Source of the DNA: an uncultured Clostridium sp.
GTDB taxonomy: Bacteria; Bacillota; Clostridia; Clostridiales; Clostridiaceae
NCBI GenBank assembly: GCA_903789665.1
Contig: CAIFEX010000008.1
Location: 1-64,000 of the forward strand
Reading direction: 5' to 3'
Length of the DNA: 64,000 nucleotides
Positions 14,664 through 56,787 of this stretch are shown here, piece after piece. Positions within the stretch are counted from its first letter, which is position 1. Every line of letters begins with the position of its first letter. Position numbers and translations under genes: made by a program. The notes under the pieces are model-generated. The model had not been told where the DNA came from. It ran no database searches and was given only the letters and a program-made list of their open reading frames with translations.

Positions 14664-15482
14664 TCAATTTACTTTTAAATTATATTTTACCGTGGTGAAC
14701 GTGATCTCTATCAAATAGGCAAATATAAAGACAAGAAGTATGGAAATGCCGGCACGCCCGTAATTATAACTGGATAAGCTGGAATATATAGAATAACCTA
14801 TTCCGCCGGCACCTACCATACCAAATATTCTGCATTCACCAAAATTTATTTCAAATCTCATTGCAATCCATGCTATGAGAGAAGTAAAAGAAGCCGGTAA
14901 AATTACACTGAAAAAGATTTGAATTCCTGTTGCTCCAGTGGCTTTAACAGCCTCAATCACATCTTCAGGAACTTCTTCAAAACTTTCTGAAAAGGATCTT
15001 GCAAAGAAAGCACTTGAATGTAAAAAAAGTCCCAGAATTGCAGGTACTGGGCCAAGGCCCAGACAGGTAAGAAACAAAAGCACCCATATCATCGTCGGGA
15101 CTGCCCTGACAAAGGAACTTATAGAGGTAAACAGTACTGCCAGAGTCCTGCTGGGAGTGATATTTCCTGCCATAATGGCACCTACAACGAGTCCTGCAAG
15201 TATGCTATATGCAGTTGCCAATATTGTTATTTCAACTGACTCTGCAAATCCGATTAAAATCAAATTGAAATTGCTAAAGTTGAACTTCAATAATTTTAAA
15301 AAAACACCTCCAAGCAGAGCAAATCTTGATATCAATTTACCCCATTCTATATGGAGGTTGACTATAGATATTATCGATATAAGAAGCATAAGCACAATGA
15401 AAATCTTAAACACCCTATTATTCTCAGGGCTGCTTATTTTAATCCGGTCTTTGGAATTTACTTTGATATTGTCTCTCCCCAT
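14664..15482 (-). CDS. phnE: Phosphonate ABC transporter permease PhnE (second copy)
   Basis: A 272-residue membrane permease with about six predicted segments. The permease loop is VIEAVKATGATGIQIFFSVILPA (residues about 178-200), the EAA-type motif that docks on the PhnC ATPase. The N-terminus is charged for about 25 residues before the first membrane segment. It overlaps the preceding phnE by one base (TAATG). Paired PhnE proteins are common in Gram-positive phosphonate systems and presumably form a heterodimer. It is the last gene of the phn row; no clear terminator follows. Confidence 0.9.
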   Translation of the reverse strand: MGRDNIKVNSKDRIKISSPENNRVFKIFIVLMLLISIISIVNLHIEWGKLISRFALLGGVFLKLLKFNFSNFNLILIGFAESVEITILATAYSILAGLVVGAIMAGNITPSRTLAVLFTSISSFVRAVPTMIWVLLFLTCLGLGPVPAILGLFLHSSAFFARSFSESFEEVPEDVIEAVKATGATGIQIFFSVILPASFTSLIAWIAMRFEINFGECRIFGMVGAGGIGYSIYSSLSSYNYGRAGISILLVFIFAYLIEITFTTVKYNLKVN

Positions 15483-16282
15483 TACACCAAAACCTTCTTT
15501 CTTATTAAATCTGTAATGATATTGACTACAATAACCACCAGTGCTATTTCCAGAACTGCCGTAGTTGCCACTTTATATTTAAAGGATTTTATATATCCCA
15601 TAAGTAAAAGCCCTATTCCACCTCCGCCTACAAAACCAACAATAGTTGAATCCCTCACGTTCAATTCTATTGAATACAAAAACCAGGATAGATAACCGGG
15701 AACTGCCATTGGAATTACACCTTGAACTATTTTTTGCGGAAAACTCGCTCCAACAGAATCCAGTGCTTCTAGAATTTCTCCTCCAATCTCATCTATAGTT
15801 TCAATATATGCCCTCAACAAAAAACCAAAAGATGTTATAAAAAGAGCCAACAGCCCGACAGAAATTCCTATTCCAAAGGCCATGACCAGTATAAGAGCCC
15901 AGACTAAAGCCGGGATATTTCTCATAAAAGATCCAATGAGTCTTATAATTTTATTTAACAGAGGTACGTGGAAAATTATATTTGATCCAAAAAAAGATAA
16001 AATCAGTGCAAATACGGCAGCTAAAAAAGTGGAAGTTACAGCCATCTCAAAGGTCTGAAGCAGTGCCAGACTTGTTTCCTGTACCCTCGTAAAATCAGGC
16101 GGCAAAAATTCTTGTGTTATAAAATCAATTAGATTATTATAATTAAACAGTATCTCAAAGGGGTTGTACTCGGTAAAAAAGGTAGACACGGCAAAGAGAA
16201 CCGCCGTGATAATAAGAGCTGTATTATAATATTTATTTCTCCTCGTATCTGTCAGAGCTATATGTTCTCTGGATTCAAGCAT
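15482..16282 (-). CDS. phnE: Phosphonate ABC transporter permease PhnE (first copy)
   Basis: A 266-residue permease, homologous to its downstream neighbour. Hydrophobic segments start near residues 18 and 75, and the EAA-type loop ILEALDSVGASFPQKIVQGV is near residue 170. Its ATG follows GGGAGGAG and overlaps the end of phnC by 8 bp, which implies translational coupling. Together with PhnC and PhnD it forms a binding-protein-dependent importer for phosphonates and possibly phosphite or phosphate esters. Confidence 0.9.
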   Translation of the reverse strand: MLESREHIALTDTRRNKYYNTALIITAVLFAVSTFFTEYNPFEILFNYNNLIDFITQEFLPPDFTRVQETSLALLQTFEMAVTSTFLAAVFALILSFFGSNIIFHVPLLNKIIRLIGSFMRNIPALVWALILVMAFGIGISVGLLALFITSFGFLLRAYIETIDEIGGEILEALDSVGASFPQKIVQGVIPMAVPGYLSWFLYSIELNVRDSTIVGFVGGGGIGLLLMGYIKSFKYKVATTAVLEIALVVIVVNIITDLIRKKVLV

Positions 16283-17066
16283 TCAATTTCTCCTCCCTTT
16301 TTCCAATCATCAAGTTGTCCATGGATGTATCGTAAATGTCTTCTATAATTTTATTGCTGAGCAGACTTGGCACTCCATCGAACACCACTTCACCATTTTT
16401 TATTCCAATTATTCTATCTGCATATCTCTTTGCTATTTCAACCTGATGTAAATTTACGATGCAGGTTATACCTCTCTCTTTTACCAGATCTCTTATCAAG
16501 TCCATAATAACCTTGGAATTTCCGGGATCAAGAGAGGCAATTGGTTCATCACATAGAAGCAAAGAGGGTTCCTGCATCAATGCCCTGACGATTCCAACTC
16601 TCTGTTTTTGACCCCCGGAAAGTTCGCTGGCCCTCTTATACATATAATTAATCAGGCCAACTTTATCTAGAAGTGCAACTGCCTTTTTTTTATCTTCTTC
16701 GGAATAAAGTCCTAATATTCCCTTTATACCTGATATATAGCCAAGTCTTCCGTGCATGACATTCTGCATTACAGTCAACCTGTAGACCAAATTGTAATTT
16801 TGGAACACCATTCCAATTTCTCTTCTGACTTTTCTGATCTCCCTGCCTTTAATTTGATTTATAACCTTATTTCCCAATATAATTTCACCTTTCGTAGGTT
16901 GGGTAAGACAGTTTATACACCGCAGTATCGTTGACTTACCAGCACCTGAAGGCCCAATAATAGAAACAAATTCCCCCTTGTTTACGTGAAAACTTATATT
17001 GTTTAAAACCAGTTTATCTTTGTTAAAATACTTGTATAGGTTATTAACCGATAAAATTCTATTCAA
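16275..17066 (-). CDS. phnC: Phosphonate ABC transporter ATP-binding protein PhnC
   Basis: A 263-residue ABC ATPase energising phosphonate import. Walker A GPSGAGKST (near residue 37), Q-loop MVFQNYNLV, signature LSGGQKQRVGI, Walker B LLLCDEPIASLDP and switch histidine region IVNLHQVE are all intact. The start codon is TTG at 17066, behind GGAGATGATTTGAT. It is separated from phnD by about 100 bp that hold a terminator-like hairpin. Confidence 0.92.
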   Translation of the reverse strand: MNRILSVNNLYKYFNKDKLVLNNISFHVNKGEFVSIIGPSGAGKSTILRCINCLTQPTKGEIILGNKVINQIKGREIRKVRREIGMVFQNYNLVYRLTVMQNVMHGRLGYISGIKGILGLYSEEDKKKAVALLDKVGLINYMYKRASELSGGQKQRVGIVRALMQEPSLLLCDEPIASLDPGNSKVIMDLIRDLVKERGITCIVNLHQVEIAKRYADRIIGIKNGEVVFDGVPSLLSNKIIEDIYDTSMDNLMIGKREEKLNA

Positions 17067-17169: not shown

Positions 17170-18102
17170 TTAATTAAGTCCAAATTTAGTTGCCAGATCA
17201 TTTATATATTTGTAATCGGAGTTTTCTGCAGATACATAACGAATTTTTTGTCCCTCTTTTTCTCCAACAAAATTTTTGAAATAGGAATCATTGTCATATT
17301 TCAGATAAAAGTTTTTTACACTTTTTATGAAGTTTGGATCCAGGTCTCCCCTTATTGCTACAGGTGAACCCGGAATTATAGGAGATTTGTATATGATTTT
17401 TATCTTATTTTTGTCTACATCACCCTTTTGAATTTCCAGATCAAAGGTGTCTGAAGCACAGGGAGCAGCATCGATATCACCTTTTGCTACTGATAATAAT
17501 CCATTTTGATGGGCTCCTGAATAAGTAACCGACTTAAAAAATTTTCCATTGGTATGTAGGGCATCAATAGTTAAATTCTGATCCTTGAGTGTATCGATTA
17601 TAGCTTTTGAAGGAACCAAATTACCGGAAGTTGAATCCGGATCCACAAATGCAAAGCTCTTTCCCTTTAAATCCTGTATTGAATTTATTGAATTGTTGTT
17701 TGACTGGGTAATAAGGTAAGAATAGTATCCTGCCTTGCTTTTATCTGAATTTAAAGCCGGGACTACCAGAGGCACTGCCTTAGATCTTTTATGTGCCTGG
17801 ACATAGGATAGCGGTCCAAAATTGGCAATATCCACTTTCCCGGTTCTCATGCCCTCTATGGCTGCATTGTAATCACTGCAGAGGTATTCTTGAACTTTCA
17901 CTCCCAATGCCTTTTCCATGTCTTTCTGGATGGCATGACGATATTCTGTAAGTTGAGATGTAGCTTCATTGGGAAGATAAGCTATAACTATTTTGTCAGG
18001 TTTTTTTACCTTGTTTTGAGAAGTTTTAGATTGTGAGGAACAGCCTGCAATAGAAAAGACAATCATTATCGTCATAATAATGGGCAGAATTTTTTTTAAC
18101 AT
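17170..18102 (-). CDS. phnD: Phosphonate-binding lipoprotein PhnD
   Basis: A 310-residue periplasmic-type solute receptor, here a lipoprotein. The signal peptide (residues 1-20, MLKKILPIIMTIMIV) ends in the lipobox SIAGC with acylated Cys21. The mature part has the PhnD pattern IAYLPNEATSQL, NFGPLSYVQA, AFVDPDSTSGNLVPS and IPGSPVAIRGDLD, including the Ser/Thr cluster expected around the phosphonate group. GGAG precedes the ATG. It overlaps the preceding fusion gene by 7 bp. Confidence 0.9.
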   Translation of the reverse strand: MLKKILPIIMTIMIVFSIAGCSSQSKTSQNKVKKPDKIVIAYLPNEATSQLTEYRHAIQKDMEKALGVKVQEYLCSDYNAAIEGMRTGKVDIANFGPLSYVQAHKRSKAVPLVVPALNSDKSKAGYYSYLITQSNNNSINSIQDLKGKSFAFVDPDSTSGNLVPSKAIIDTLKDQNLTIDALHTNGKFFKSVTYSGAHQNGLLSVAKGDIDAAPCASDTFDLEIQKGDVDKNKIKIIYKSPIIPGSPVAIRGDLDPNFIKSVKNFYLKYDNDSYFKNFVGEKEGQKIRYVSAENSDYKYINDLATKFGLN

Positions 18103-19736
18103 GATTTAACACTCCTTAAATTTTTTATATTTGTCTTACTCAATAATTCATCTTCAATAGGTTTGCTTTCAGCTGCTATAAAGACGAATTTATTATTGTT
18201 CCCATAACTAAAATATTGGCAGCATCCGCCAAGTGCTTTTAGAAAAATGGCAGCTGCGGCAAAATCCCATATTCTAAGTTTTGCAGAAATATATCCCTGA
18301 AGTTCCCCCATGGCAATTTTACATATGGACAGGGATGCAGAACCAAAAGCTCTGTGCCCCCTTATACTGTCATTGATTTTTGTCAAATCTATTTTTTTAT
18401 TTTTCAAAAATGTAATTGTATTTAAACTGAAATCTATAACTGAATCCTGCAGCACAGGATTTCTATCTGCTTTTTTCGTAATTATTTTTCCATTTAAAGC
18501 AGCCTCCCTGCCTGAAATCGCCGAATACATGATATCTTTCATAACATCATAGACAACACCTATGAAAGGTTTCTTATTTCTGTAAAGTGCCACGGATATT
18601 GAAAAATTTTCATGGAAACTCACAAAATTTGTGGTTCCATCAATGGGATCTATTATCCAGGTATATTCTGAAAAAAATTGTTTTTCAGAGGTTTTTTCTT
18701 CAGTTATAAAGCTGTGGTCGGGATATTTTTCGGCAATTTTTTTTACCAGAAATTTCTCAATTTTCAAATCATATTTTGTGACTAAATCCCTGCAGTCATT
18801 ATTTTTTAATTTTAGATTGAAGTTATCGGATACAGAATTTTTGACAAAATCGCCTGCTTCCCTCACAATTGATTTAATAAAATTTTCTATTTCTTCAGGT
18901 CCGTTTTCACCTTTTTTTATATCTTTGTCGAAAGAATATATTGCTTCTTTTGGGGAAGTTATGCTGCCTAATTTTATACCGGAACCATATTTCCCATGAA
19001 AATCACTTCCGCCTGTGAGAATAAGATCATATTTTTTGCTGTATCTCTTAATTTTCTCCATATCCTCACTGCTGTTGGCTTCATGATTAAGTTCCAGACC
19101 ATCCAGGCCGGCCCTACACAGTTTGTCAATCATGTCGTACGAATCGAACTGCCCTGGATGTGCCAAAATAGCTGTGCCGCCATCCGACTTTATGGCTCTG
19201 ACCGCATCCACTGCATCCACATAGATTATATCCCTGCTGCATATACCTTTACCCTTAAATAGTTTTCTGTATAAATCGGAATATATTTCATCTGTGTAAC
19301 CTCTCTCTATCAGTTCCTCCATTATATGCTGCTTGTATATAACCCGGCTGTTTCTCGCCCTGCCTATTATATTTTTAATACTTATTTTATAGCCGGCGTC
19401 TATCAGTGTACTTATCTGTGAAATGGAATTGGCGTTTCTTCTTTCCAAAATGGGATTACATAATTTCTTTATGTTTTTACCTTGAAGATCGAAATTAAAT
19501 CCTAAAATATGGGCTTTCTTGTTCTTTTGAAAATCGAACCCGGAGATTTCAATTCCCGGAATGACCTTTATACCCTCCCGTATTCCCAGATCTACAGCTT
19601 TTCCCAGGCCTTCTACAGTGTCATGATTTGTTATTGCTACATGGGTCAGTCCACTTTCTCTGGCCATATTCAATATTTCTTCAATGCTGCTGCAGCCATC
19701 TGAAATATCAGTATGAATGTGAAAATCTGCCTTCAT
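18096..19736 (-). CDS. PHP phosphoesterase - inositol monophosphatase fusion in the C-P lyase locus
   Basis: A 546-residue two-domain protein. Residues 1-260 are a PHP metal-dependent phosphoesterase: HIHTDISDG, NHDT, GIEISG, AHPGQF and GSDFHGKYG supply the metal ligands. Residues 275-535 are an inositol-monophosphatase-like domain with ITEEK, DPIDGTTNF (near residue 363) and WDFAAA. C-P lyase makes 5-phosphoribosyl 1,2-cyclic phosphate; some bacteria lacking PhnP open it with a PHP enzyme (the Eggerthella lenta PhnPP precedent). As phnP and phnN are absent, I infer the PHP half does this job. The IMPase half may remove a phosphate from a following intermediate; that is a guess. ATGA overlap with phnL and a 7-bp overlap with phnD place it firmly in the operon. 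Confidence 0.85.
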   Translation of the reverse strand: MKADFHIHTDISDGCSSIEEILNMARESGLTHVAITNHDTVEGLGKAVDLGIREGIKVIPGIEISGFDFQKNKKAHILGFNFDLQGKNIKKLCNPILERRNANSISQISTLIDAGYKISIKNIIGRARNSRVIYKQHIMEELIERGYTDEIYSDLYRKLFKGKGICSRDIIYVDAVDAVRAIKSDGGTAILAHPGQFDSYDMIDKLCRAGLDGLELNHEANSSEDMEKIKRYSKKYDLILTGGSDFHGKYGSGIKLGSITSPKEAIYSFDKDIKKGENGPEEIENFIKSIVREAGDFVKNSVSDNFNLKLKNNDCRDLVTKYDLKIEKFLVKKIAEKYPDHSFITEEKTSEKQFFSEYTWIIDPIDGTTNFVSFHENFSISVALYRNKKPFIGVVYDVMKDIMYSAISGREAALNGKIITKKADRNPVLQDSVIDFSLNTITFLKNKKIDLTKINDSIRGHRAFGSASLSICKIAMGELQGYISAKLRIWDFAAAAIFLKALGGCCQYFSYGNNNKFVFIAAESKPIEDELLSKTNIKNLRSVKSC

Positions 19737-20428
19737 ATGAGTTCACCCGCCTCCATATTGTATTCTCTGTCACAAACCCCATCCATAAAATCAATGTCAT
19801 GAAATATTCCTATCATCGTAGTTCCTTCAGATTTCAGCTGATTTAAAAGCTCTTTTACCCTTTCTTTAGAATAATTATCCAAGCTTGCGGTAGGTTCATC
19901 CAAAAGTAATAACCGGGGATGCTTGACCATAGCCATAGCTATGTTTAGACGCAATTTTTCACCACCTGAGAAATTATTCGGATAGCTGTCCCAAAGTTCC
20001 CTGTCAAGTTCAAAATGTTCAAGTATTTTATCGGCTTCTTTTGAAGCGTATTCTTTGCTAAAACCCATTTCCAAGACGGAATGTTCCACAAGATCCCTGG
20101 CTATGGTTCTTGGCATACTGTTGAGAAACTGGGATACATATCCCATTTCATATTTTCTCAAATATATCATCTGTCTTTCAGATATACTTAAAATATCAAC
20201 TAGTCCAAATTTTTTTGAATTGTACCATATGTTTCCTTCATTGGCCAGATAAGTTCTGTAAATGCATTTAAGTATTGTGGACTTACCACTTCCACTTCTG
20301 CCTGTAATTCCTATGAACTCCCCCTTGTTTAAAGATATGTTGATATTCTTTGATGCACTTATATGTTTCCTCAGGCTGTGTATGGTAAAAGTTTTGCATA
20401 AATTTTCTATTTTCAGTAGCTGCTCCAT
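19733..20428 (-). CDS. phnL: C-P lyase ABC-type protein PhnL
   Basis: A 231-residue ABC-ATPase-like subunit of C-P lyase that does not transport. Walker A GRSGSGKST, signature NFSGGEKLRLNIAM and Walker B LLLLDEPTASLD are intact. The LHISASKNINISLNKGEF-type N-terminus, EYNMEAGE end and position in the locus identify PhnL rather than PhnC. PhnL supports the PhnI step that couples phosphonate to the ribose of ATP. Five bases separate it from the acyltransferase gene. Confidence 0.9.
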   Translation of the reverse strand: MEQLLKIENLCKTFTIHSLRKHISASKNINISLNKGEFIGITGRSGSGKSTILKCIYRTYLANEGNIWYNSKKFGLVDILSISERQMIYLRKYEMGYVSQFLNSMPRTIARDLVEHSVLEMGFSKEYASKEADKILEHFELDRELWDSYPNNFSGGEKLRLNIAMAMVKHPRLLLLDEPTASLDNYSKERVKELLNQLKSEGTTMIGIFHDIDFMDGVCDREYNMEAGELI

Positions 20429-20432: not shown

Positions 20433-21068
20433 TTACCTTCCTTTATAATGCTTCTTCACAAAATCATCTATATTCAATAAAAAGTCATTGAAATTTTCTT
20501 TTATTTTCTCGTAGCTCCAATTCCACCATTTGATGCTCTGAAGTTTTAAAACAACGTCCTCATTGAATCTTTTTCTGATCACTTTTGCAGGTACGCCTGC
20601 CACTATAGTATAGGGTTCAACATTTTTTGTCACTACAGCACCACTTCCAACCACAGCTCCATCTCCAACAGTTACATCCGGCATGACAATAGCACCATGG
20701 CCTATCCAGACATCATTTCCAATGTATACTTTTTTGCTTTCCCTTCTTCGGAAAAATTCTTCATCATCTTTTTCGTCAAAACCGTATATTTTCCTCCTGT
20801 AGGTGAAATGATGCAGGGTCGGTCTTTCCATAGGATGATTTGTAGGCCCAATTCTCACCATGGCAGCAATGTTGACAAACTTACCTACTTCAGTGTTTTG
20901 CAGAAAACAAAATTGACCTGTATAAGAATAATCACCGAGAATCACATTCTCATAAAAATTTAAAATACCCACTTTTGTAAATTCACCCAGTTTTGAATTT
21001 ACTATTTTACAGTCCCTGCCTATAACCGGTTTTCTGGATAACACTTTCCCATCAGCATTCATAAGCAA
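20433..21068 (-). CDS. Hexapeptide-repeat acyltransferase of phosphonate metabolism
   Basis: A 211-residue left-handed beta-helix protein of the family often found in phn operons. Hexapeptide-type turns run from about residue 15 to 165 (IVNSKLG, IGNDVWIGHGAIVMPDV, VGDGAVVGSGAVVTKNV), followed by AGVPAKVIRKRF, typical of xenobiotic/CAT-like acetyltransferases. The catalytic His is probably in IGPTNHPMERP or VWIGHGA. By analogy with PhnO it may acetylate aminophosphonates, but the fold differs and the substrate is unknown. It overlaps phnM by 10 bp. Confidence 0.8.
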   Translation of the reverse strand: MLMNADGKVLSRKPVIGRDCKIVNSKLGEFTKVGILNFYENVILGDYSYTGQFCFLQNTEVGKFVNIAAMVRIGPTNHPMERPTLHHFTYRRKIYGFDEKDDEEFFRRRESKKVYIGNDVWIGHGAIVMPDVTVGDGAVVGSGAVVTKNVEPYTIVAGVPAKVIRKRFNEDVVLKLQSIKWWNWSYEKIKENFNDFLLNIDDFVKKHYKGR

Positions 21069-22234
21069 TAATTGGTCCTTGAAATTAATTTTCCATCAAC
21101 AAAAGCTGATGTAATAACCGGGAATTTATTATTTAACTTTTCTATTATAATTACGTCAGCTTTTTTGCCTTCTTTTATCGAGCCTACGGTGTTATCAATA
21201 TTTACTGCTTTTGCCGGATTTATTGTAACCATATTGAACATTTTGCTTAAATCCATGTCATATTTACCGTTGAGGAGAAATACTGCATGAAGCATGGCTG
21301 CTGGATAGTAGTCACTGCAGAGTATGTCGATATAGTCTTTTTTTATTGCCTCTATTGCACATAGATTTCCTGCATGGGATCTACCAAGGAGTACATTTGG
21401 CGCTCCCGCCACTGTATACATTCCCATATTTTTAGCAGATTTTGCGACTTCTAGGGTTACAGGAAATTCACTTATCTTGGCACCATAATCTCTAACAATT
21501 TTTAATTTTTCAATACTGTCGTCATCATGGGATGCAATTGGAATATTTTTTCTTACAGCCAGGCCGGCAATTTCCTTTATGGCTTTGTCCGTTATCTTTT
21601 CTTTATGCTTGCTGTCTTCGATTATATTCTCTATTTTCTCATCCGACAGTCCTCTGTTGGATTTAAGTGCTTTTTTGTATATCTCCAGATCCCTGTATTC
21701 TCCTTGTCCCGGAGTGTGATCCATAAAGGAAATCAGCTGTACTTTATCATTTTTAATATACTCTTTTATATTATCTACCTCGCCTACATCGTCTATTTCA
21801 ATTCTTGCATGAAAGCGGTGCCTGATAAGATGTTTGCTGCCGTGTATCCTGTCAATGGTGTTGATTATTTTCTCCACATTTTTAGGATCTCTTATAGGCA
21901 TGTTTTTCAATTCATTCTTATCCATGGTAATTGAATGAAACATAGTTGTTATACCTTCATTTATTAAAATCTTTTCCTCTTCCCTTAGGCTTATGGAAAA
22001 ATCCATAATTGAAGTAGGCCTAGGTGCAGACATGGTCTCAATGTAATCTGAATGCACATCAATGAATCCAGGAGCTATAAAACCGCCTTTGGCATCAATT
22101 GTCTCTTTAAAATCATGTTTTTTGATTTCTTCATCTTTTTTAATTTCTGCAATTAAATCATCTTTGATTATGAGATCATATCCCGTTAATATTTCATTTT
22201 CAGTTATTATTTTTCCATTTCTAATTAGGTACAC
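21059..22234 (-). CDS. phnM: Alpha-D-ribose 1-methylphosphonate 5-triphosphate diphosphatase PhnM
   Basis: A 391-residue amidohydrolase-fold enzyme that removes diphosphate from the ribose triphosphate phosphonate made by PhnGHI(L). Metal ligands are visible in GFIDVHSDYIE (HxD/H site), SFMDHTPGQGEY, ASHDDDS and LCSDYYP. It has GTG as start after GAGGAGG. Length agrees with the family. Its product is the substrate of PhnJ. Confidence 0.93.
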   Translation of the reverse strand: MYLIRNGKIITENEILTGYDLIIKDDLIAEIKKDEEIKKHDFKETIDAKGGFIAPGFIDVHSDYIETMSAPRPTSIMDFSISLREEEKILINEGITTMFHSITMDKNELKNMPIRDPKNVEKIINTIDRIHGSKHLIRHRFHARIEIDDVGEVDNIKEYIKNDKVQLISFMDHTPGQGEYRDLEIYKKALKSNRGLSDEKIENIIEDSKHKEKITDKAIKEIAGLAVRKNIPIASHDDDSIEKLKIVRDYGAKISEFPVTLEVAKSAKNMGMYTVAGAPNVLLGRSHAGNLCAIEAIKKDYIDILCSDYYPAAMLHAVFLLNGKYDMDLSKMFNMVTINPAKAVNIDNTVGSIKEGKKADVIIIEKLNNKFPVITSAFVDGKLISRTNYCL

Positions 22235-22273: not shown

Positions 22274-23116
22274 TCACAGAAGTGAATACACCAACTGCTG
22301 TGTATACTCAGATTGAGGATCTTCAAGTATTTGATCTGTAAGACCTTTTTCAATAATTTTTCCATTGAGCATGACGACGGTCCTGTCTGCAAGCATTCTT
22401 ATAACACCAAGATCATGGGATACGATAATCATACTTATACAAAGCTCTCTTTGGATTTCCTTGATTAAATCAAGTACATTCGCCTGCACCGACAAATCCA
22501 ATCCTGTAGTAATTTCATCCAGCAGCAGGACAGGAGGATTATTTGACAGTGCCTTGGCAATTTGAACCCTCTGCTGCATACCACCTGAAAAATTTTTAGG
22601 AGCTTCTTTCATTCTTGAAAGCGGTATGTTGACTCTCTCCAGAAGTTCCCTTCCCCTCTCTTCCATCTTGCTCACATTTCTATGCCCTGCAGAAATTAAA
22701 TTCTCGGCAATATTGCCTATGGAGGAAAAATTCATTCTCAACCCCTGTGCAGGGTTTTGATAAACTTTACCTAGAATATTGTTTTTTATAAATCGTTTCT
22801 GCTGGGAGGATTCTGAAAATATATTTACTCTGCCGTTTTTATAGTTATTTATATAAGCCTGTCCAGAAGTGATATCTTTATCAAAATAAAGGCATTCCAG
22901 TAAAGTGGATTTTCCACTGCCGCTTTCTCCTACGACACCGAGTATCTCTCCTTTATACAACTCAAGGGAGATATCCTGACAGGCATACACTGTACCACAT
23001 TCAGGGCAAAAGTTTTTCTCCAGCCTATTCTTTGAATTACTGCATTTACTGCATCCATTTCCAAATTGCTTGTTTAAATTTACAACTTTCAAAATTGGTT
23101 TTTCCGAAGGTTCCAT
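22274..23116 (-). CDS. phnK: C-P lyase ABC-type protein PhnK with a zinc-ribbon insert
   Basis: A 280-residue ABC-ATPase-like subunit that docks on the PhnJ core. Walker A GESGSGKST, signature NFSGGMQQRVQIAKAL, Walker B LLLDEITTGLDLS and the switch region IIVSHDLGVI are all present. Residues 22-40 carry an extra CxxC-x11-CxxC (Cys22, 25, 37, 40) between the first strand and the P-loop, with Cys46 nearby. This is not part of the E. coli-type protein as I know it and suggests a bound zinc. Start is ATG behind GAGGTG, 10 nt after phnJ. Confidence 0.9.
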   Translation of the reverse strand: MEPSEKPILKVVNLNKQFGNGCSKCSNSKNRLEKNFCPECGTVYACQDISLELYKGEILGVVGESGSGKSTLLECLYFDKDITSGQAYINNYKNGRVNIFSESSQQKRFIKNNILGKVYQNPAQGLRMNFSSIGNIAENLISAGHRNVSKMEERGRELLERVNIPLSRMKEAPKNFSGGMQQRVQIAKALSNNPPVLLLDEITTGLDLSVQANVLDLIKEIQRELCISMIIVSHDLGVIRMLADRTVVMLNGKIIEKGLTDQILEDPQSEYTQQLVYSLL

Positions 23117-23125: not shown

Positions 23126-23974
23126 TCAATTATCTGTCAATTTGCTGTTCATTCTCATAAGACAATAGCTTGTATCATTACATTGATAATATTTTTTACC
23201 GGTTTCTTTGTCTATAAATTCATCAAGATATACATCAGCTGCCCCGCAGAGTCTGCATTTTTTGCCTTCAAAATTTTCAGGCTTGAATGGATAATCCTCG
23301 AAGCACAGAGATCTTACCTTAGTATAGGGCGGCACCGCATATATCTTTTTTTCCCTTCCTGCCCCCAGAAGAATTAAAGCTTCGGAATAATTCATTTTAC
23401 TATTGTCAAAACGGGGTATAGGACTTGGGGCCATTACATATCTGTCATTTACAACAACAGGATGGTCAGGTCCAGTAGCCATATCTCCGTACTTCATAAT
23501 CCGCTCAAATAACATGAGCCAAACACCGCTGTATTCTTTTTCAGCATGAAGTCTTTTGGACTTATATTCACTGGGTTCCACATATCGAAGAGGTTCTGGA
23601 ATTGGGACCTGAAGTACCAATATTTGACCATTTTTAAGCTTTACCTCCGGAATTCTGTGCCTCGATTGAATTATGGTAGCTTCTTCTGTTTTTTCTGTAA
23701 TTCTGACACCAGTAGTACCCTGTACGAGCTTTTTTATATTTACAGCATTTACGGATTCATCTGATCCCTGATCTATAACCTTCAATACATCTTTTTTGCC
23801 AATTAGCGATAGAGTCAGCTGGAGCCCTCCTGTGCCCCATCCTCTGGCTATAGGCATTTCCCTCGAGGCAAAGGGAACCTGATAACCGGGAATTGCAACG
23901 GCTTTTAGGGAAGCTCTTCTAATTTCTCTTTTGGAATTTTCATCAAAGAAAGCAAAATTATAATTTCTCTTCAA
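23126..23974 (-). CDS. phnJ: C-P lyase PhnJ (radical SAM)
   Basis: A 282-residue enzyme that breaks the C-P bond of ribose 1-alkylphosphonate 5-phosphate with a 5'-deoxyadenosyl radical. The C-terminal cysteines CRLC...QCNDTSYC have spacing x2, x21, x5, which is that of the known PhnJ cluster ligands. The N-terminus NYNFAFFDE, PGYQVPFASREMP and GWGTGGLQLT are family hallmarks. The frame runs back to 24037, but the family start fits the TTG at 23974, behind AGGGACAGCAA, which overlaps the end of phnI by 17 bp. Confidence 0.95.
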   Translation of the reverse strand: MKRNYNFAFFDENSKREIRRASLKAVAIPGYQVPFASREMPIARGWGTGGLQLTLSLIGKKDVLKVIDQGSDESVNAVNIKKLVQGTTGVRITEKTEEATIIQSRHRIPEVKLKNGQILVLQVPIPEPLRYVEPSEYKSKRLHAEKEYSGVWLMLFERIMKYGDMATGPDHPVVVNDRYVMAPSPIPRFDNSKMNYSEALILLGAGREKKIYAVPPYTKVRSLCFEDYPFKPENFEGKKCRLCGAADVYLDEFIDKETGKKYYQCNDTSYCLMRMNSKLTDN

Positions 23975-25082
23975 TTGCTGTCCCTTCCTTTCTCTTGGTT
24001 CTGCGTACGCTGTCCAATTTTGATTGAAAAGTAACATAATGGGGCAGTTTCAAATGTGACATGAATCCCGAGGATTCAACACTGTCTATGTGAAGTAATA
24101 CAAATTCCTCATCCTGGGTTGGATATACTGTATCTTTGTTTTCAAGACATTGATCAAGTATTGCCATAGCCATAGCTTTGGTCTCGTTCTGGCCATAGCA
24201 GGCACCATAACCTATACCAAATTCAAACTCCTGCCTTCCATTTTTTTTCTTCACTGTTTTGGGCACAAACATTTCCACTTCTGTTATTACAATATCCCCT
24301 ATATAGAAATCTTCCTCTTCTTCACAGGAATCTTCCAGTGGATTGCTCACATACAGCGGAAGATTTCCAACTCTCAATTCCCCTACTGTAGGGTGTTTGG
24401 AACCATAACCTCTCAATGCTGCATATCCTAAAGATATAACTGCTCCTGTTTGTCCTCTCGTTAAAATTTGCAACCTTTCACTTCTCTCTGTAGGAAATTC
24501 TATACTCTTCTTGGTTATGTCAATTGGAGATCTGTCATCATTTTTATAGGACCTGATAAGTCCCTCTGCTCTTAAATAATCCAAAACTTTGGGTAAATTC
24601 CTAAGATTTTCCCGAGGGACTTTAGAAGAAATATCATTTTCAAACTTCTTTAGCCATTTCAGGGATTCTCCCTTGGATTCATCGACAAGATCAAAATCTA
24701 TAAGTCTATGGGTATAATCACGAGATGCTCCTAAAATTTGTCCCCCCGGTATATCTTTAAAACTAGCTGAGATTCTTCTTTCTATATGCATGTCTTTCGA
24801 TTCAGCCGTCCTTGTATAATGTTTTCTTGACAGCGTAGATCTGTAAGCCCTAAGTAAAAATACCGCCTCTTCAGAATTACCTTCTGACTGCTTGATTGCA
24901 ATAGCCGCCAATTTTTCAGAGTACAGGCTGCTTTCCGACATTACCTGATCAATAAGTCCCCTCATACCTGCTTCTATATCGCTGACTTTTAAAATACTGC
25001 CCTTTTTCAATCTTTCATATTTTACTCTTCTAATAGACTCTTCTATAGCCCTAGTTCCACCTTTTACAGCCACATATCCCAC
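23958..25082 (-). CDS. phnI: Alpha-D-ribose 1-methylphosphonate 5-triphosphate synthase subunit PhnI
   Basis: A 374-residue catalytic subunit that exchanges the adenine of ATP for phosphonate, with PhnG, PhnH and PhnL. The N-terminus GYVAVKGGTRAIEES is characteristic, and the C-terminal half has KHPTVGELRVG, YGACYGQNETKAMAMAILD and SSGFMSHLKLPHYV. The GTG start follows AAGGTGG, one base after the phnH stop codon. Slightly longer than the E. coli protein. Confidence 0.93.
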   Translation of the reverse strand: MGYVAVKGGTRAIEESIRRVKYERLKKGSILKVSDIEAGMRGLIDQVMSESSLYSEKLAAIAIKQSEGNSEEAVFLLRAYRSTLSRKHYTRTAESKDMHIERRISASFKDIPGGQILGASRDYTHRLIDFDLVDESKGESLKWLKKFENDISSKVPRENLRNLPKVLDYLRAEGLIRSYKNDDRSPIDITKKSIEFPTERSERLQILTRGQTGAVISLGYAALRGYGSKHPTVGELRVGNLPLYVSNPLEDSCEEEEDFYIGDIVITEVEMFVPKTVKKKNGRQEFEFGIGYGACYGQNETKAMAMAILDQCLENKDTVYPTQDEEFVLLHIDSVESSGFMSHLKLPHYVTFQSKLDSVRRTKRKEGTAIEEKL

Positions 25083-25083: not shown

Positions 25084-25677
25084 TTAATCCACCTTCTTTG
25101 TAACTTCTGTAGTCCTTGGCAGACATATTATATTCGAATATCTGTCTACAAAAATCATGTCTATTCCCATGGGAAACTCTACATTTTTATTGTGTAAACT
25201 GTCCAACCAGACTCCATTCAGCTGCAGATCCATATAATTTTTATCCTTTATGCCAGGTCCCTTAAGCAAAAATTTTTTTTCATTACTTATTTTAGAAGTT
25301 TCCACAATTACAGTAGCTGATCTATGAGGATTTATTAAATTTCCAGGTTTTGCACAAGCAAGTGCCTCTTTTAACATAATTATGTCTGCATCTTCCAATA
25401 TAAATATGAAATCGGCTTTTTCAATGCACTCGGGTTTTGAATAAGTCAGCTGCCTTACGATACTGGAAACTTCATTCTCATTTTTAGAAATAATTTTGAA
25501 ACTCACCTCTGAATCCAGTAGCATGAACATCAATACTAATGTGGAATTGAAAAATTTTATATCCATATGAATTTTTTTACTTTCTTCATCTATGTTTTTT
25601 ATAACGCCGGGTTCTGACATGCAAGTTAATAATTTTCTATAAGCTTTCTGTATATCGTGAACCATATCAATCTCCAT
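25084..25677 (-). CDS. phnH: C-P lyase complex subunit PhnH
   Basis: A 197-residue subunit of the PhnGHIJ core; PhnH is a PLP-transferase-like fold without cofactor. Family features are VHDIQKAYRKLLTCMSEPG at the N-terminus, NPHRSATVIVE and LKGPGIKD in the middle, and PMGIDMIFVD towards the C-terminus. It sits between phnG and phnI with 2-bp and 1-bp gaps, matching the conserved phnGHIJ order. Confidence 0.92.
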   Translation of the reverse strand: MEIDMVHDIQKAYRKLLTCMSEPGVIKNIDEESKKIHMDIKFFNSTLVLMFMLLDSEVSFKIISKNENEVSSIVRQLTYSKPECIEKADFIFILEDADIIMLKEALACAKPGNLINPHRSATVIVETSKISNEKKFLLKGPGIKDKNYMDLQLNGVWLDSLHNKNVEFPMGIDMIFVDRYSNIICLPRTTEVTKKVD

Positions 25678-25679: not shown

Positions 25680-26105
25680 TTATCCTTCCTTCATCGTCTC
25701 AAAGTTTACTTTGGTTTTTAAAATTTGGGCCTCTTTTAAAGATTCTGCCTTTTTTATCCTCTTTTCTTCTTCAACTAGCATTTTTTCCCATGCATTTGTC
25801 TCTTCTAGATTTGAATTGTAAGCTGCATCAATAACTGCAAGCCAATATGCCAAATCCGGTCTATAACCTTTTACAATTCCCAATCCAAATTTTTTATTTA
25901 TCTGTACCTTTACTTCAGTTACAAGTACTTCCCCCAAGTAAAATAATGAATTTTTAGCGCTTTCACGCATTTTCACCATAACGAGACCAGTATTTGGTTT
26001 TTCTATCATCTTTATTTCATATTTTTTTTCTATTTCCTCGAAGAGGCTTTCTGCAAGTTTTTCGGAACCTCTAACCAGGATTTCAGTTCTTCTTCGTCTT
26101 TTCAT
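25680..26105 (-). CDS. phnG: C-P lyase complex subunit PhnG
   Basis: A 141-residue core subunit, first gene of the phn row. The N-terminal RRRRTEILVRGS, the central KPNTGLVMVKMRES and FYLGEVLVTE, and GLGIVKGYRPDLAYWLAVIDAAY are typical. The C-terminal helix (residues 105-141) is highly charged. GAGAGGAG precedes the ATG. A 150-bp gap with a probable promoter separates it from the regulator. Confidence 0.92.
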   Translation of the reverse strand: MKRRRRTEILVRGSEKLAESLFEEIEKKYEIKMIEKPNTGLVMVKMRESAKNSLFYLGEVLVTEVKVQINKKFGLGIVKGYRPDLAYWLAVIDAAYNSNLEETNAWEKMLVEEEKRIKKAESLKEAQILKTKVNFETMKEG

Positions 26106-26256: not shown

Positions 26257-26982
26257 TTATTTGATTATATATTTGAAATGATCGGATCTATAAAGTATTT
26301 TTGTATATTCAAGTATCTTTTTGGTCTTGGCATCGCAGGAATTGGTTTCCAATATCAGCAGAGGAATCAGACTCCGGCATTTCAATATTTCTCGCTCTCC
26401 TTCCGTGGGAAAGGAAACACTTAAAATACTCTTACTTGACATGAATTCACTGTACCCGTTATTTCGGTAATACTCAAACATGGATGTTATTTTATCGCCA
26501 AAATTTTCTATATTAGGGAAAGTAGTTGAAGAAACATAGGATACATGCAACGCCATGGGTATGTGATCTATGATTCTGAGTCTTGCAACCTTATATATCT
26601 TGTCACCGGCATCTGCATTTAATTCCGTAAAAATTTTTCTGTTATATTTTATCCTTTTAAAGCATACATTTTTTGATAAAAAATCATATCCTTTTTTTAT
26701 CATTTTCTCACTAAAACTCTTGTCACCAGATAAAACGAGATCTATGAGTTCATGTTTATGCTTCAAAAATCTCCCTTTACCCCATTTAGAATAGATATAA
26801 CCCATCTCCTGTAACCTCTCATAAGCCTTTCTAACCACTATTCTTGGAACTTTGTAAATATCAGCCAAATCATTTTCCGAAGGCAGTCTGTCGTTTTTGT
26901 CATATTTCTTTTTATTGATGTTATATATCAGTTCATCTATAATTTTGGTTTCAGCATCAATATTATCATTCATGGGTTTCAC
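26257..26982 (-). CDS. phnF: GntR/HutC-family regulator (PhnF-like)
   Basis: A 241-residue regulator. Residues 10-75 form the winged helix (DRLPSENDLADIYKVPRIVVRKAYERLQEMGYIYSKWGKG region) and residues 90-235 a UTRA effector domain, with IYKVARLRIIDHIPMALHVSY at its core. PhnF proteins of phosphonate operons belong to this class, and its position directly upstream of phnG makes it the likely phn repressor. GAGGTG precedes the ATG. The effector is unknown. Confidence 0.75.
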   Translation of the reverse strand: MKPMNDNIDAETKIIDELIYNINKKKYDKNDRLPSENDLADIYKVPRIVVRKAYERLQEMGYIYSKWGKGRFLKHKHELIDLVLSGDKSFSEKMIKKGYDFLSKNVCFKRIKYNRKIFTELNADAGDKIYKVARLRIIDHIPMALHVSYVSSTTFPNIENFGDKITSMFEYYRNNGYSEFMSSKSILSVSFPTEGEREILKCRSLIPLLILETNSCDAKTKKILEYTKILYRSDHFKYIIK

Positions 26983-47916: not shown

Positions 47917-49440
47917 TTATATTTCCAGTTTCACTTTCTCTTCAACTGATCTCAAAAGTTCTCCGCTTGTCACAAGCCCCTCGCACTTATCAAGATCTTT
48001 ATACATTATTTTATCTTTTTCTATGAAATCCACTTTGTTTCTCACTGCCTTATAGGCTTCTTCAGTACCTTTCCCCAATTTAAGCCCCTTTCTGAAATCT
48101 ATGGCCTGACATGCAGCCATAAGTTCCGTCGCCAGCACCCTGGCCGTATTGTTTACAATTTCCAGGCCTTTCCTAGCGGCAATAGTGCCCATGCTAACGT
48201 GATCTTCCTGATTCGCCGATGAAGGTATGGAATCCACAGAAGCAGGATGGGCAAGTATTTTATTTTCCGATACCAGAGCCGCCGCTGCATACTGTGTAAT
48301 CATAAATCCGGAATTAAGCCCCCCATTTTTCGCCAAAAATGGCGGCAGATCGTTTAGCTGATAGTTTATCAGTCTCTCCAGTCTTCTCTCCGATATATTG
48401 GCTATTTCAGATACTGCAATTCCAAGGAAATCAAAGCTTAACGCCATAGGTTCACCGTGAAAATTCCCTCCGGATATAACGTCTGAATTATCAAATATAA
48501 TAGGATTATCCGTAACAGAATTTATCTCTATTTTAACTTCCTCTTTAACATAATTTACAGCATCCTTACTGGCTCCGTGAACCTGCGGCACACACCTCAG
48601 GGCATAGGCATCCTGCACTCTCAAGTCACCCTGGTCAGTCATAAAGGTACTGCCTTCCGTCAAAGCAATTATATTTTTAGCTGTTTGAATCTGACCTCTG
48701 TGGGGCCTCAATTTATGTGTTCTCAAATCAAATGCATCCCGAACTCCCCTTAAAGCTTCCATAGTAAGAGCTGCCGTAATATCACTCACTTTTAAAAGAT
48801 TTATGGCTTTATACAATGCCAGAGAACCAACTGCAGTCATTACCTGAGTCCCGTTTATGAGTGCAAGCCCCTCTTTGGCCACCAATTCAACTGTAGGTAT
48901 GCCGGCTTTTTCCATAGCATCTTTTCCCGGCAAAATCTCTCCTTTAAACTCAGCTTCCCCCTCACCTATCATGGGCAGCACCATATGTGCAAGAGGTGCA
49001 AGATCACCGGAGGCTCCCAAAGAACCCTTCTCAGGAATAGACGGATGTACTCCTTTATTGAGCATATCCAGCAGTGTCTCAAAAACGCTCAGCCTTATTC
49101 CGGAATATCCTCTTGCCAGATTATTTGCTCTCAGCAGCATTATCGTCCTCACTATTTCTCTGGGAAATTTTCGCCCGAATCCGCAGGAATGTGACATTAT
49201 CAAATTCTTTTGAAGTGTTTTGCACTCCTCTCCCGTTATAACTACATCAGAGAATTTTCCAAATCCTGTAGTAATTCCATATTTTACATCATTTCTGCTT
49301 ACTATGCCATCTATTACCTTTCTTGAATCATTTATTTTTTCTCTGACTTCCTCAGTTATATGAACTGCATAATCATTGTAGGCAACATTTATAATATCTT
49401 CAATAGTAAGGTTTTCACCATTTAGAGTAACAATTTCCAT
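47917..49440 (-). CDS. hutH: Histidine ammonia-lyase
   Basis: A 507-residue enzyme converting histidine to urocanate and ammonia. The self-made MIO electrophile comes from Ala-Ser-Gly in GSLGASGDLAPLAHM (near residue 141). KYGITTGFG, SVTDNPI and SSANQEDHVSMG are family motifs. I start at 49440 (MEIVTLNGENL), behind AAGGGGG, which gives the standard length; the frame extends to 49488. First catabolic step of the cluster. Confidence 0.96.
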   Translation of the reverse strand: MEIVTLNGENLTIEDIINVAYNDYAVHITEEVREKINDSRKVIDGIVSRNDVKYGITTGFGKFSDVVITGEECKTLQKNLIMSHSCGFGRKFPREIVRTIMLLRANNLARGYSGIRLSVFETLLDMLNKGVHPSIPEKGSLGASGDLAPLAHMVLPMIGEGEAEFKGEILPGKDAMEKAGIPTVELVAKEGLALINGTQVMTAVGSLALYKAINLLKVSDITAALTMEALRGVRDAFDLRTHKLRPHRGQIQTAKNIIALTEGSTFMTDQGDLRVQDAYALRCVPQVHGASKDAVNYVKEEVKIEINSVTDNPIIFDNSDVISGGNFHGEPMALSFDFLGIAVSEIANISERRLERLINYQLNDLPPFLAKNGGLNSGFMITQYAAAALVSENKILAHPASVDSIPSSANQEDHVSMGTIAARKGLEIVNNTARVLATELMAACQAIDFRKGLKLGKGTEEAYKAVRNKVDFIEKDKIMYKDLDKCEGLVTSGELLRSVEEKVKLEI

Positions 49441-49484
49441 ATTTTCATTTCCCCCTTGTGATTTTAATACTTGTGAGTTAAATG

Positions 49485-50123
49485 TCAATCCAATTTACTC
49501 TCTACAATTTCCATTATTTTTTCTTTTTCCTGCCTGCTCTCTTTCAGCAGGCAACTGCATTTGCTTTTTAAATTTTCCTTGTAATTTTCATCTTTTATAT
49601 TCCGGATATTAATCTTTACATTGAGAACCGCACCTTCTACTGCAGTTTCCACCAGGGAAGCCGCCACTCCCGCATCTGAAATTGCATTTTTATTTCCATA
49701 ATTCACAGCAGTAAATATATATGGGTACAGCCTGCAGGCATTTTCAGCCACTCGAAGAGGAACCTCAAGCGACTTGCTGTTCCCTCTCCTTATGGCGTCT
49801 TCCCTCAATTTTACCTCTTCTTTTGTATTTTTAGGCATCTTATAAGCTCTCATCAAGGACATGAAAGATTCCGTATCTTTCTCCATAAAAGTCAAAAATT
49901 CTTTACTGTATAAATTCATATGATGCATAGAAGAGTCGATGGTACCTCTCAATACGTTTTCATATTTCAGATATTCTCTTTTCCCAATTGTCAGATTAAA
50001 TACCATGCCGGTCAGCGCACTGGCCAAAGCCGCTGCAAGAGCCGAAACACTTCCTCCTCCAGGTGCAGGCGACTTTGAAGCTAATTCATCTATAAATTCC
50101 CTCAAATTAAGATCCTGTAACAT
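49485..50123 (-). CDS. fchA: Formimidoyltetrahydrofolate cyclodeaminase
   Basis: A 212-residue helical enzyme that converts 5-formimino-THF to 5,10-methenyl-THF and ammonia. Typical features are FIDELASKSPAPGGGSVSAL at the N-terminus and SDAGVAASLVETAVEGA near residue 165. It is separate from ftcD, whereas mammals fuse the two. AGGAGG precedes the ATG. Its presence shows that the histidine carbon can enter the folate pool. Confidence 0.94.
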   Translation of the reverse strand: MLQDLNLREFIDELASKSPAPGGGSVSALAAALASALTGMVFNLTIGKREYLKYENVLRGTIDSSMHHMNLYSKEFLTFMEKDTESFMSLMRAYKMPKNTKEEVKLREDAIRRGNSKSLEVPLRVAENACRLYPYIFTAVNYGNKNAISDAGVAASLVETAVEGAVLNVKINIRNIKDENYKENLKSKCSCLLKESRQEKEKIMEIVESKLD

Positions 50124-50137
50124 AACTGCCTCCTAAA

Positions 50138-51391
50138 TTAATACATTAATTTTCCCTTTTCCACTGCAATTTTTCCGTTTTTTATTACAGTATCAACTGC
50201 ATTTACACCAAAATGGTATATAAGATAATCCAAATTTTTAGCATCGAATACAATTATATCAGCTTTTTTCCCGACTTCAATACTTCCTATTTCATTCTCC
50301 CTTGAAATTGCAGCAGCACCGTTTATAGTCATGGCATTTATTATTTCTTCAGGCAGCATTTTAAGTCCAAAGCATGCAAAAGTCATGGTTGCCTGAAGGG
50401 ATTCCGTTGGTGAAGTGCCTGGATTGCAATCCGTAGCCAGGGCTACTATAACCCCGTCTTTTATCATTTTTCTAGCCCTTGCAAATTTATTTAACATCAA
50501 ATAAAATGATGTTGTTGGCAGGAGTACTGCAACCACTCCGTTTTCAGCCAAAGACTTTATGCCATTGTCAGAAGCAGATACCAGGTGTTCTGCAGATACT
50601 GCCTTTATTTCACCGGCTAGTTCCGCTGCAGATACGGATTCAACTTCATCCGCATGTATCTTGGCCTTGAGTCCGGCTTTTTTCCCGGCCTCTAAAATTC
50701 TTTTCGCCTCTCCTGTAGTGTATACCCCTTTTTCACAAAAACAGTCAATGAATTCCGCCAGTTCATGCTCTTTCACATAGGGAATTACAGAATTTATCAT
50801 TAAATCTATATAAGCTCCCCTATTATCCTTAAATTCTTCCGGAACGGCATGTGCCCCTAAATAGGTAGATACTATATCAACAGGATGTTTGCCGTTTAAA
50901 TTTTTGTTTACCTGAAGCAGCTTTATCTCATTTTCAAAATCCAGGCCGTACCCAGACTTGCTTTCAACAGTAGTAGTTCCATGAAGAAGCATTGTATCCA
51001 ACCTGCTTTTTGTTTCATTTTCAATTCTCTCTATTGGAGTCTTTCTTACACTATTTACAGTACTGAGTATACCCCCTCCAGCTTTGAGTATGTCAATATA
51101 CTTTACATTCCTGAGTTTTAGGGAAAGTTCTTTTTCCCTTGATCCGGCGTATACAACATGGGTATGACTGTCTACAAGTCCCGGTGTGACAGTCTTACCG
51201 CCGCCGTCTATTACAATCCTGCCGCTTCCCAAATATTTTTTATATCCATCTCCGCTGCCAACTTCTGCTATTCTATTGTTGTCTACAATTATATATCCAT
51301 TATTAACTATGCCTGCATCTTTTAGATTTTCTTTTGTCTTGGGACAATTTCCCCCACAGGTAACAAGACAGCTTATATTTTTGATTATCAT
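50138..51391 (-). CDS. hutI: Imidazolonepropionase
   Basis: A 417-residue amidohydrolase opening imidazolone-5-propionate to N-formiminoglutamate. Metal ligands are in VDSHTHVVYAGSRE, KIHADEVE and SAEHLV, with ATDCNPGTSP near the C-terminus. The start at 51391 follows AAGGAG. It lies 40 bp after hutU and 14 bp before fchA. Confidence 0.95.
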   Translation of the reverse strand: MIIKNISCLVTCGGNCPKTKENLKDAGIVNNGYIIVDNNRIAEVGSGDGYKKYLGSGRIVIDGGGKTVTPGLVDSHTHVVYAGSREKELSLKLRNVKYIDILKAGGGILSTVNSVRKTPIERIENETKSRLDTMLLHGTTTVESKSGYGLDFENEIKLLQVNKNLNGKHPVDIVSTYLGAHAVPEEFKDNRGAYIDLMINSVIPYVKEHELAEFIDCFCEKGVYTTGEAKRILEAGKKAGLKAKIHADEVESVSAAELAGEIKAVSAEHLVSASDNGIKSLAENGVVAVLLPTTSFYLMLNKFARARKMIKDGVIVALATDCNPGTSPTESLQATMTFACFGLKMLPEEIINAMTINGAAAISRENEIGSIEVGKKADIIVFDAKNLDYLIYHFGVNAVDTVIKNGKIAVEKGKLMY

Positions 51392-51431
51392 AATAATTAT
51401 CTCCTTCTTATCAGTTAATAACAAGTATTTA

Positions 51432-53453: not shown

Positions 53454-53477
53454 AATATTTACCTCCTGTAAGACTAA

Positions 53478-53505
53478 ATTGTACATATATGAAAATGATA
53501 TTCAA
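53478..53505 (-). promoter_or_regulatory. Possible hutU-operon promoter
   Basis: On the minus strand TTGAAT (plus 53500-53505), a 16-nt spacer and TACAAT (53478-53483), 25 bp from the hutU start. Moderate match only; it may need the divergent activator. Confidence 0.4.
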
Positions 53506-53655
53506 TTATTTAAATATTGTATCAATTTCATCTATTTATATGCTACCTTAAATGCATCTCCAGAAAGTCAATACAAATTAAAATTTGATTTTTAAAATTC
53601 TGTATTTTTCATATATTGAAGACGTTTTATATTTAATTCCATGCAAATACTATGT

Positions 53656-53661
53656 TATAAT
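53656..53661 (+). promoter_or_regulatory. Possible -10 of the SARP-like regulator gene
   Basis: TATAAT at 53656-53661, with a weak TTAATT 17 nt upstream. The regulator ribosome binding site AGGAAGGG follows at about 53688. Confidence 0.4.
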
Positions 53662-53701
53662 ATATTTAAATAGTCTGCCTACTAAAAGGAAGGGATGTAT
53701 A

Positions 53702-56755: not shown

Positions 56756-56787
56756 GGATGATTTTCGGCAGCCGCTGAAAATCATCC
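56756..56787. terminator. Bidirectional terminator between the regulator and ftcD
   Basis: GGATGATTTTC (56756-56766) pairs with GAAAATCATCC (56777-56787), with further inner pairing around loop AGCC. It lies between convergent stop codons. Confidence 0.85.

Follow-up and report, generated by a model that had tools for sequence, protein, structure and literature searches.

How does a C-P lyase pathway reach its end when no gene of the genome that encodes it passes the cut-offs for PhnP or PhnN? C-P lyase supplies cells with phosphorus from phosphonates, with methane arising from methylphosphonate; PhnJ makes 5-phosphoribosyl 1,2-cyclic phosphate, and to our knowledge the end steps are well known only for the PhnP-PhnN pair of Escherichia coli. 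The question is raised by a stretch of 64,000 nucleotides from an uncultured Clostridium sp. (assembly GCA_903789665.1, contig CAIFEX010000008.1, positions 1 to 64,000; hereafter the window), in which a complete C-P lyase operon (phnG, H, I, J, K, L and M, all on the minus strand) includes one open reading frame (ORF; 18096-19736, minus strand, 546 amino acids, ATG start) that joins a PHP domain to an inositol-monophosphatase-family (IMPase) domain. Judging from sequence, this fusion may be a bifunctional end-stage enzyme of the pathway, with the PHP domain opening the ring and the IMPase domain freeing inorganic phosphate (Pi), a reading that we consider evenly balanced; the ring-opening step by the PHP domain, taken alone, we hold to be likelier than the full two-step model.

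An earlier note on this DNA had described a PHP domain fused to an IMPase-like domain and translationally coupled to phnL and phnD. Pfam confirms the fusion on the single ORF, placing PHP (PF02811) on residues 4-106 (1.3e-10, 42.3 bits, cut-off 26.4) and Inositol_P (PF00459) on residues 281-512 (6.8e-53, 180.3 bits, cut-off 27). The coupling holds as well: phnL ends and the fusion begins within one ATGA (4 nt overlap), and the ATG of phnD opens a 7-nt overlap (ATGTTAA) that closes with the fusion stop. On the minus strand the gene divides into a PHP domain (residues 1-271; 18924..19736), predicted to be a PhnPP-like cyclic-ribosyl-phosphate phosphodiesterase, a linker (residues 272-279; 18900..18923) and an IMPase-family domain (residues 280-546 and the stop; 18096..18899), predicted to be a ribose-bisphosphate phosphatase. 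In an AlphaFold2 model built on a 26-sequence alignment, both domains fold with confidence (mean predicted local distance difference test, pLDDT, 91.4). Residues 272-276, within the linker, form the sole run of at least three residues with pLDDT under 50, and weaker blocks (pLDDT 59-79) lie at 301-320, 421-430, 511-520 and the C-terminus; how the two domains sit with respect to each other is uncertain because the predicted template modelling score is 0.57. A plasmid search returned 192 matching records, among which no site covered 80% of the fusion.

The earlier note had also reported phnP and phnN as missing, and this proves true of the whole genome (3.03 Mb, 63 contigs, 99.99% complete) at the family cut-offs. 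PhnP (TIGR03307), whose presence elsewhere would have told against the proposal, passes its cut-off on none of the 63 contigs: the best match, at 38.4 bits against 272.25, is a metallo-β-lactamase (MBL)-fold protein. For PhnN (TIGR02322) the best match over the same genome reaches 43.4 bits against 156 and is a guanylate kinase (PF00625, 161 bits). Both candidates were thus rejected.

The PHP half finds its best family in NF041661 (PhnPP, phosphoribosyl 1,2-cyclic phosphate 1,2-diphosphodiesterase), at 284 bits and 1e-84 over profile positions 1-250 of 259, against 128.9 bits for NF041577 and 112.8 bits for NF047791. It fails the curated equivalog cut-off of NF041661 (284 vs 500 bits), and since none of the 23 PHPs that we surveyed at phn loci reaches 500 bits we file it as PhnPP-like; 22 of these score 206-303 bits (best 302.6) and one, in G779, 172. 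Where a searched genome holds a second PHP copy, this scores no more than 114 bits on the same profile. The window protein has the residues that we take, from the PHP family, to bind the trinuclear metal, and the 27 aligned rows agree in all of them except His137 (26 of 27). K135 and M139 occur in 26 of 27 phn PHP rows; the four rows of RNase-AM type carry R135 and A139 instead. The proposal that the PHP domain stands in for PhnP is supported, as a prediction of function, by the nearness to PhnPP, the retained metal residues and the presence of such genes at 23 of 37 loci; as a novelty it does not stand, for phnPP is already used as an alternative to phnP in PMC8774927, and PMC11656708 cites a PHP enzyme cleaving both bonds of a cyclic diester.

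The IMPase half scores well above the gathering threshold of PF00459 and carries the motifs EE, DPIDGT and WD, which we take to bind metal; the catalytic motifs are intact in all 13 phn-linked IMPases. It lies far under the NCBIfam equivalogs for the named families with which it was compared (inositol-1-monophosphatase/SuhB, HisN, CysQ and FBPase-IMPase), with 103.7 of 332 bits for PRK10757, 111.4 of 275.15 for TIGR02067, 96.9 of 228.8 for TIGR01331 and 99 of 264 for PRK12676. The position before the WD motif, where a Glu presumably binds inositol, is Glu in 9 of 9 SuhB-type sequences, Ser484 in 12 of the 13 phn-linked IMPases and Gly in the other, and Ser437 is present in all 13, with Asn in three of the four other Ser/Thr-type rows used. 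By sequence, the top match among solved structures is IMPase-II of Staphylococcus aureus, which also comes first by fold; SuhB and human IMPase trail it by 1-2 Z units in a listing where one domain fills most rows and the absence of a family carries no meaning. One S. aureus IMPase-II entry, 5dw8, contains 2'-AMP, a ribose 2'-phosphate, according to its PDB title, so that removal of a ribose 2'-phosphate has a plausible precedent. The fused domain is the sole PF00459 match in its genome, and no match was found in any of 12 congeners, which led us to reject a housekeeping IMPase caught in the operon by chance.

How widely this association extends was assessed among C-P lyase genomes. Searches for PhnJ gave hits in 11 genomes out of 206 from the family, 21 out of 398 from the phylum and 7 out of 391 from the class, sets in which some genomes are repeated; the resulting survey comprises 37 different C-P lyase genomes, with the window's own counted once. 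IMPase-family genes lie at the phn locus in 12 of the 37 and PHP genes of PhnPP-like type in 23. The fused form occurs in two genomes (G000, G145) and, beyond the survey, in L003. Separate PHP and IMPase genes occur in seven (G182, G335, G951, G806, G920, G580, G239), and three have an IMPase with no PHP seen (G609, G661 and G684, where the contig ends). The commonest operon type, at 14 of 37, has a PHP only (G047, G063, G068, G073, G080, G148, G467, G493, G537, G729, G764, G779, G812, G893); seven have neither gene, and four loci (G036, G183, G727, G740) are too truncated for assignment. Contigs L005 and L006 were taken to belong to G063 and G047 and counted once. Fusions are thus seen in three loci of different assemblies, all in phn operons: the window, L037 (552 aa) and L003 (537 aa), the last found by a non-exhaustive pattern scan in an Acidaminococcaceae metagenome-assembled genome whose phn operon has a different gene order.

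PF00459 was further searched in 80 genomes, comprising 33 C-P lyase genomes (the 37 less the four truncated) and 47 that gave no PhnJ hit, made up of 12 congeners, 8 genomes from the family, 26 from the class and 1 from the phylum. It is present in 15 of the 33 against 5 of the 47, and in 12 of those 15 the best copy lies at the phn locus (elsewhere in G729, G683 and G721); G951, G609 and G661 have a weak second match of 64-84 bits. The figure for this location (~10^-23) and Fisher's p (0.0006) ignore relatedness, and the background of 47 genomes is non-random and counts as PhnJ-free some genomes for which no match row was listed; we use neither figure as a P value. An IMPase recurs at phn loci and at times stands there independently of a PHP, which the earlier note had not remarked.

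Where PHP and IMPase are separate genes they are often closely set. Adjacent pairs overlap by 4 nt in L069 and L116 and by 7 nt in L117, and in L115 the two abut in the same frame with a single stop separating them. In L041 the IMPase likely starts 1-10 nt past the PHP stop, with AAAGGAGG in the junction. In L076 phnL stands between the two, and in L122 their order is reversed with a gap of 474 nt. The IMPase of L122 (G580) is immediately preceded by a 259-aa gene (L122:8433-9212) that looks 2H-phosphoesterase-like by eye and has no Pfam or NCBIfam match.

Among the loci without a PHP, that of G609 (L123) has an MBL-fold gene 14 nt after the IMPase stop, with GGAGG ahead of its ATG; the best family of its product is the cyclic-nucleotide phosphodiesterase NF041851 (129.9 bits, cut-off 400). 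In this genome, which is 100% complete, neither NF041661 (at 1e-10) nor PhnP (at 1e-5) finds a match. The best NF041661 matches are 79.7 bits in G661, where PhnP matches stay below cut-off, and 103 bits in G684, an assembly that is 81% complete. PhnP over cut-off was found in none of the 12 genomes searched for it.

On the family tree the phn-linked IMPases cluster, with 2 label changes against a shuffled mean of 9.5; a single clade of all 13 is neither shown nor rejected (approximately unbiased test, p-AU 0.077). The window and L037 fusions are sisters and the split pair of L041 comes next (100/99, 99/98), so that in this lineage the fused gene is closely related to a pair of genes set a few nucleotides apart. 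One origin of the three fusions is rejected on the IMPase tree (p-AU 0.015, for a group named after the tree had been seen) and is compatible with the PHP tree (78/74). One fusion followed by fission in the L041 lineage is possible, and for this reason we claim no number of fusion origins. L211 and L213 were left out of the IMPase trees, L008 and E. coli CysQ also out of the second, and L212 and L214 had no usable ORF.

We propose that these two activities would act in series. Work on the enzyme of Eggerthella lenta, by Ghodge in 2013, reportedly has ribose 2,5-bisphosphate as an intermediate. By homology to PhnPP, the PHP domain would use its trinuclear metal site to open the ring of the ribosyl cyclic phosphate, probably giving ribose 2,5-bisphosphate if the regiochemistry reported for E. 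lenta applies. The IMPase domain, as a two-metal phosphomonoesterase, would then take the remaining ring-derived phosphate, yielding ribose 5-phosphate and free Pi. The earlier note's suggestion that the IMPase half may take a further phosphate or act on a side product points in the right direction. Such a route would bypass both PhnP and PhnN and deliver phosphate directly, with no phosphoribosyl pyrophosphate (PRPP) formed. In operons without an IMPase, the PHP enzyme would be expected to carry out both steps, and in operons without a PHP another phosphodiesterase, perhaps of the MBL fold, would open the ring and leave the IMPase to finish. More generally, we tentatively suggest, as a possibility slightly short of even, that the IMPase is an unrecognised end-stage enzyme of C-P lyase in Firmicutes, a ribose 2,5- or 1,5-bisphosphate phosphatase with an interchangeable PHP or MBL partner, sometimes fused to the PHP, whose reaction would end in ribose 5-phosphate and Pi.

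Several observations weigh against this proposal. No PHP that was scanned attains the curated 500 bits of NF041661, and the phn-locus PHP of G779 falls inside the range of three non-phn PHPs with a K-x-H-x-M motif (155-192 bits). High scores also occur away from phn genes: 293 bits for an orphan PHP (L068:9557-10378) in G136, which belongs to the same family and gives no PhnJ match, and 279 for one on a Lysinibacillus irui plasmid, adjoining a HAD phosphatase and a phnS2/T2-like transporter. Owing to these three cases, the NF041661 score is no clean marker of C-P lyase. In L076 the conserved His137 is replaced by Phe. No PHP column differs by at least 60 points between IMPase-bearing (n=10) and PHP-only (n=17) rows; the comparison thus gives no sign of a lost second step in the PHP half, and a residue signature of such a loss, which we had considered, was not found in it. 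On the IMPase side, Ser or Thr at position 484 also occurs in four non-phn rows, and Ser484 is therefore not diagnostic. A phn-type IMPase that lies in no phn locus (L133, G667) falls among the phn-linked copies; no phosphodiesterase gene adjoins the IMPase in G661; and relatives of the MBL protein of G609 lie outside phn loci in other genomes, including G661. Moreover, 13 of the 14 PHP-only genomes have no PF00459 match at 1e-5, which, with the frequency of PHP-only operons, makes the IMPase accessory and dispensable for the pathway where a PHP is present.

Two of the PHPs just named merit description in their own right. The orphan of G136 is 59% identical to the PHP half of the window and may be either a true orphan or the left-over of a lost operon. 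On the L. irui plasmid (L215:8195-9825) the PhnPP-like PHP gene overlaps that of a Cof-type HAD phosphatase by 4 nt and lies downstream of the phnS2/phnT2-like transporter, with no phn genes within the stretch examined; this is another pairing of a PHP with a monoesterase, and it warns that this type of PHP is not limited to C-P lyase.

How the work is shared between the halves could be read differently. The PHP half might do both hydrolyses, with the IMPase acting on ribose 1,5-bisphosphate after opening of the other ester or on ribose 5-phosphate for an extra Pi. The prevalence of PHP-only operons and the constancy of PHP columns whether or not an IMPase is present both favour such a division, as does the hydrolysis of both bonds by Elen0235 of E. 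lenta (PMC11656708). We nonetheless consider it rather unlikely, as two genomes keep the IMPase without a PHP of PhnPP level, one of them with an MBL-fold gene directly after it, and since the IMPase is kept without PhnPP, a main-line monoesterase fits better than a cleaner of side products. IMPase-family enzymes are often promiscuous phosphomonoesterases, and this general knowledge, together with the accessory standing of the gene in our survey, would suit a general Pi-starvation phosphatase, or one that prepares phosphorylated phosphonate substrates, kept in the operon for co-regulation only. Fusion or tight linkage of the IMPase to the PHP in several loci and the clustering of phn-linked IMPases in the tree (2 label changes vs 9.5) make this improbable.

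It is more doubtful still that the PHP half is a nucleotide or oligonucleotide phosphatase, of the 3',5'-bisphosphate nucleotidase or RNase AM type, and that something unseen replaces PhnP. Membership of the same superfamily, with the scores for NF041577 and NF047791 given above, is in line with that idea, as are the shortfall from the PhnPP cut-off and the high-scoring relatives outside C-P lyase loci; PhnPP, however, outscores both families by at least 155 bits, the phn PHPs differ from the RNase-AM-type rows at positions 135 and 139, and for a further PHP of the window's own genome, encoded apart from the operon on contig C13, RNase RNM is the best family (148.5 bits). That faulty sequencing or assembly produced the fusion, or that it is a read-through without function, is hardly credible, given its occurrence in three different assemblies, the intact catalytic residues of both halves and the high model confidence in both domains; we found no point that supports either.

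The remaining genes of the operon, all on the minus strand, run from a phnF-like regulator through phnG, H, I, J, K and M, a hexapeptide-repeat transferase and phnL to the fusion, then to phnD, C, E and E. The GntR/UTRA regulator (26257..26982) scores 78 bits on TIGR02325, under the cut-off of 156.8. It is followed by phnG (25680..26105; PF06754, 3.6e-37), phnH (25084..25677; PF05845, 7.5e-44), phnI (23958..25082; PF05861, 7.8e-139) and phnJ (23126..24037; PF06007, 1.7e-142), whose true start probably lies within the called ORF because the profile starts at residue 25. The ABC ATPase gene at 22274..23116 (PF00005) is named phnK from its position between phnJ and phnM (21059..22234; TIGR02318, 414.6 bits, cut-off 390.55). 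The transferase, of the phn_thr-fam type of phn operons (20433..21068), reaches 266.5 bits on TIGR03308 (cut-off 201.65), and phnL (19733..20428), which overlaps the fusion start, reaches 247.4 on TIGR02324, slightly below the cut-off of 256.3. Beyond the fusion lie the gene for a phnD-type binding protein (17170..18102; TIGR01098, 235.6 bits, cut-off 112.05; TIGR03431 PhnD, 234.7, cut-off 261.1), phnC (16275..17066; TIGR02315, 344.1 bits, cut-off 266.1), a first permease gene, phnE (15482..16282; TIGR01097, 227.6 bits, cut-off 216.7), and a second, phnE-like one (14664..15482; 181.2 bits on the same profile, under its cut-off). PhnJ was found in none of the 12 other congeneric species sampled, which suggests gain of the operon by the window species or its loss in the others.

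Other arrangements were seen along the way. The seven phylum loci with neither PHP nor IMPase have a gene of 279-366 aa for a xylose-isomerase-like TIM barrel (PF01261 in 7 of 7), at L135:5697-6620, L137:13096-14085, L138:5728-6666, L142:10205-11044, L143:9576-10676, L144:13866-14957 and L145:13345-14283; it follows phnM directly, or one gene further on in L142, and is a further candidate replacement at the PhnP step. In two genomes of one genus a second PhnM-like gene (35% to the window PhnM) and then a PhnO-like gene sit downstream of phnE (L121:7478, L122:6696). Elsewhere in the window, 47917-57700 holds a histidine-utilisation cluster with Pfam matches to an aromatic amino acid lyase (hutH-like), an amidohydrolase (hutI-like), urocanase and formiminotransferase, together with a large ORF (53585-56755) that looks regulator-like by eye.

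In summary, our results name a specific candidate enzyme for the Pi-releasing end of the C-P lyase pathway, and they predict that, in Clostridia and their relatives, surveys with phnP and phnN for markers miss part of the occurrences of the pathway. Replacement of PhnP by a PHP enzyme is already known; the new part is the link of an IMPase to C-P lyase. In the literature searched, which mostly leaves subscription journals outside and was available in part, no paper describing PHP+IMPase or linking an IMPase with C-P lyase was found; judged from title and abstract, the hits concern a flux model of E. coli and a 5'-nucleotidase.

Compared with known systems, the fusion is closest to PhnPP (Elen0235; NF041661), with which it shares an alignment over the whole PHP domain, the metal residues and the C-P lyase setting; it differs in its score (284 bits vs the curated 500), in being fused to an IMPase and in that its activity is here predicted. 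It would occupy the same place in the pathway as the E. coli route, whose PhnP has an MBL fold and whose PhnN is a kinase giving PRPP, neither of which is over cut-off in the window genome. An RcsF/2H phosphoesterase replaces PhnP in marine and other phn operons according to the available portions of PMC3840354 and PMC10574752 and is likewise a non-homologous stand-in; it differs from the fusion by its fold, and those portions mention no IMPase alongside it. RNase AM (9etk) and the Chromobacterium PHP enzyme 2yb1 are more distant, in that their matching families score far lower on the PHP half. Finally, the S. aureus IMPase-II (3t0j, 5dw8) and IMPase/NADP phosphatase (4g61, 5eyg) are stand-alone proteins, whereas the IMPase domain described here is fused to a PHP domain.

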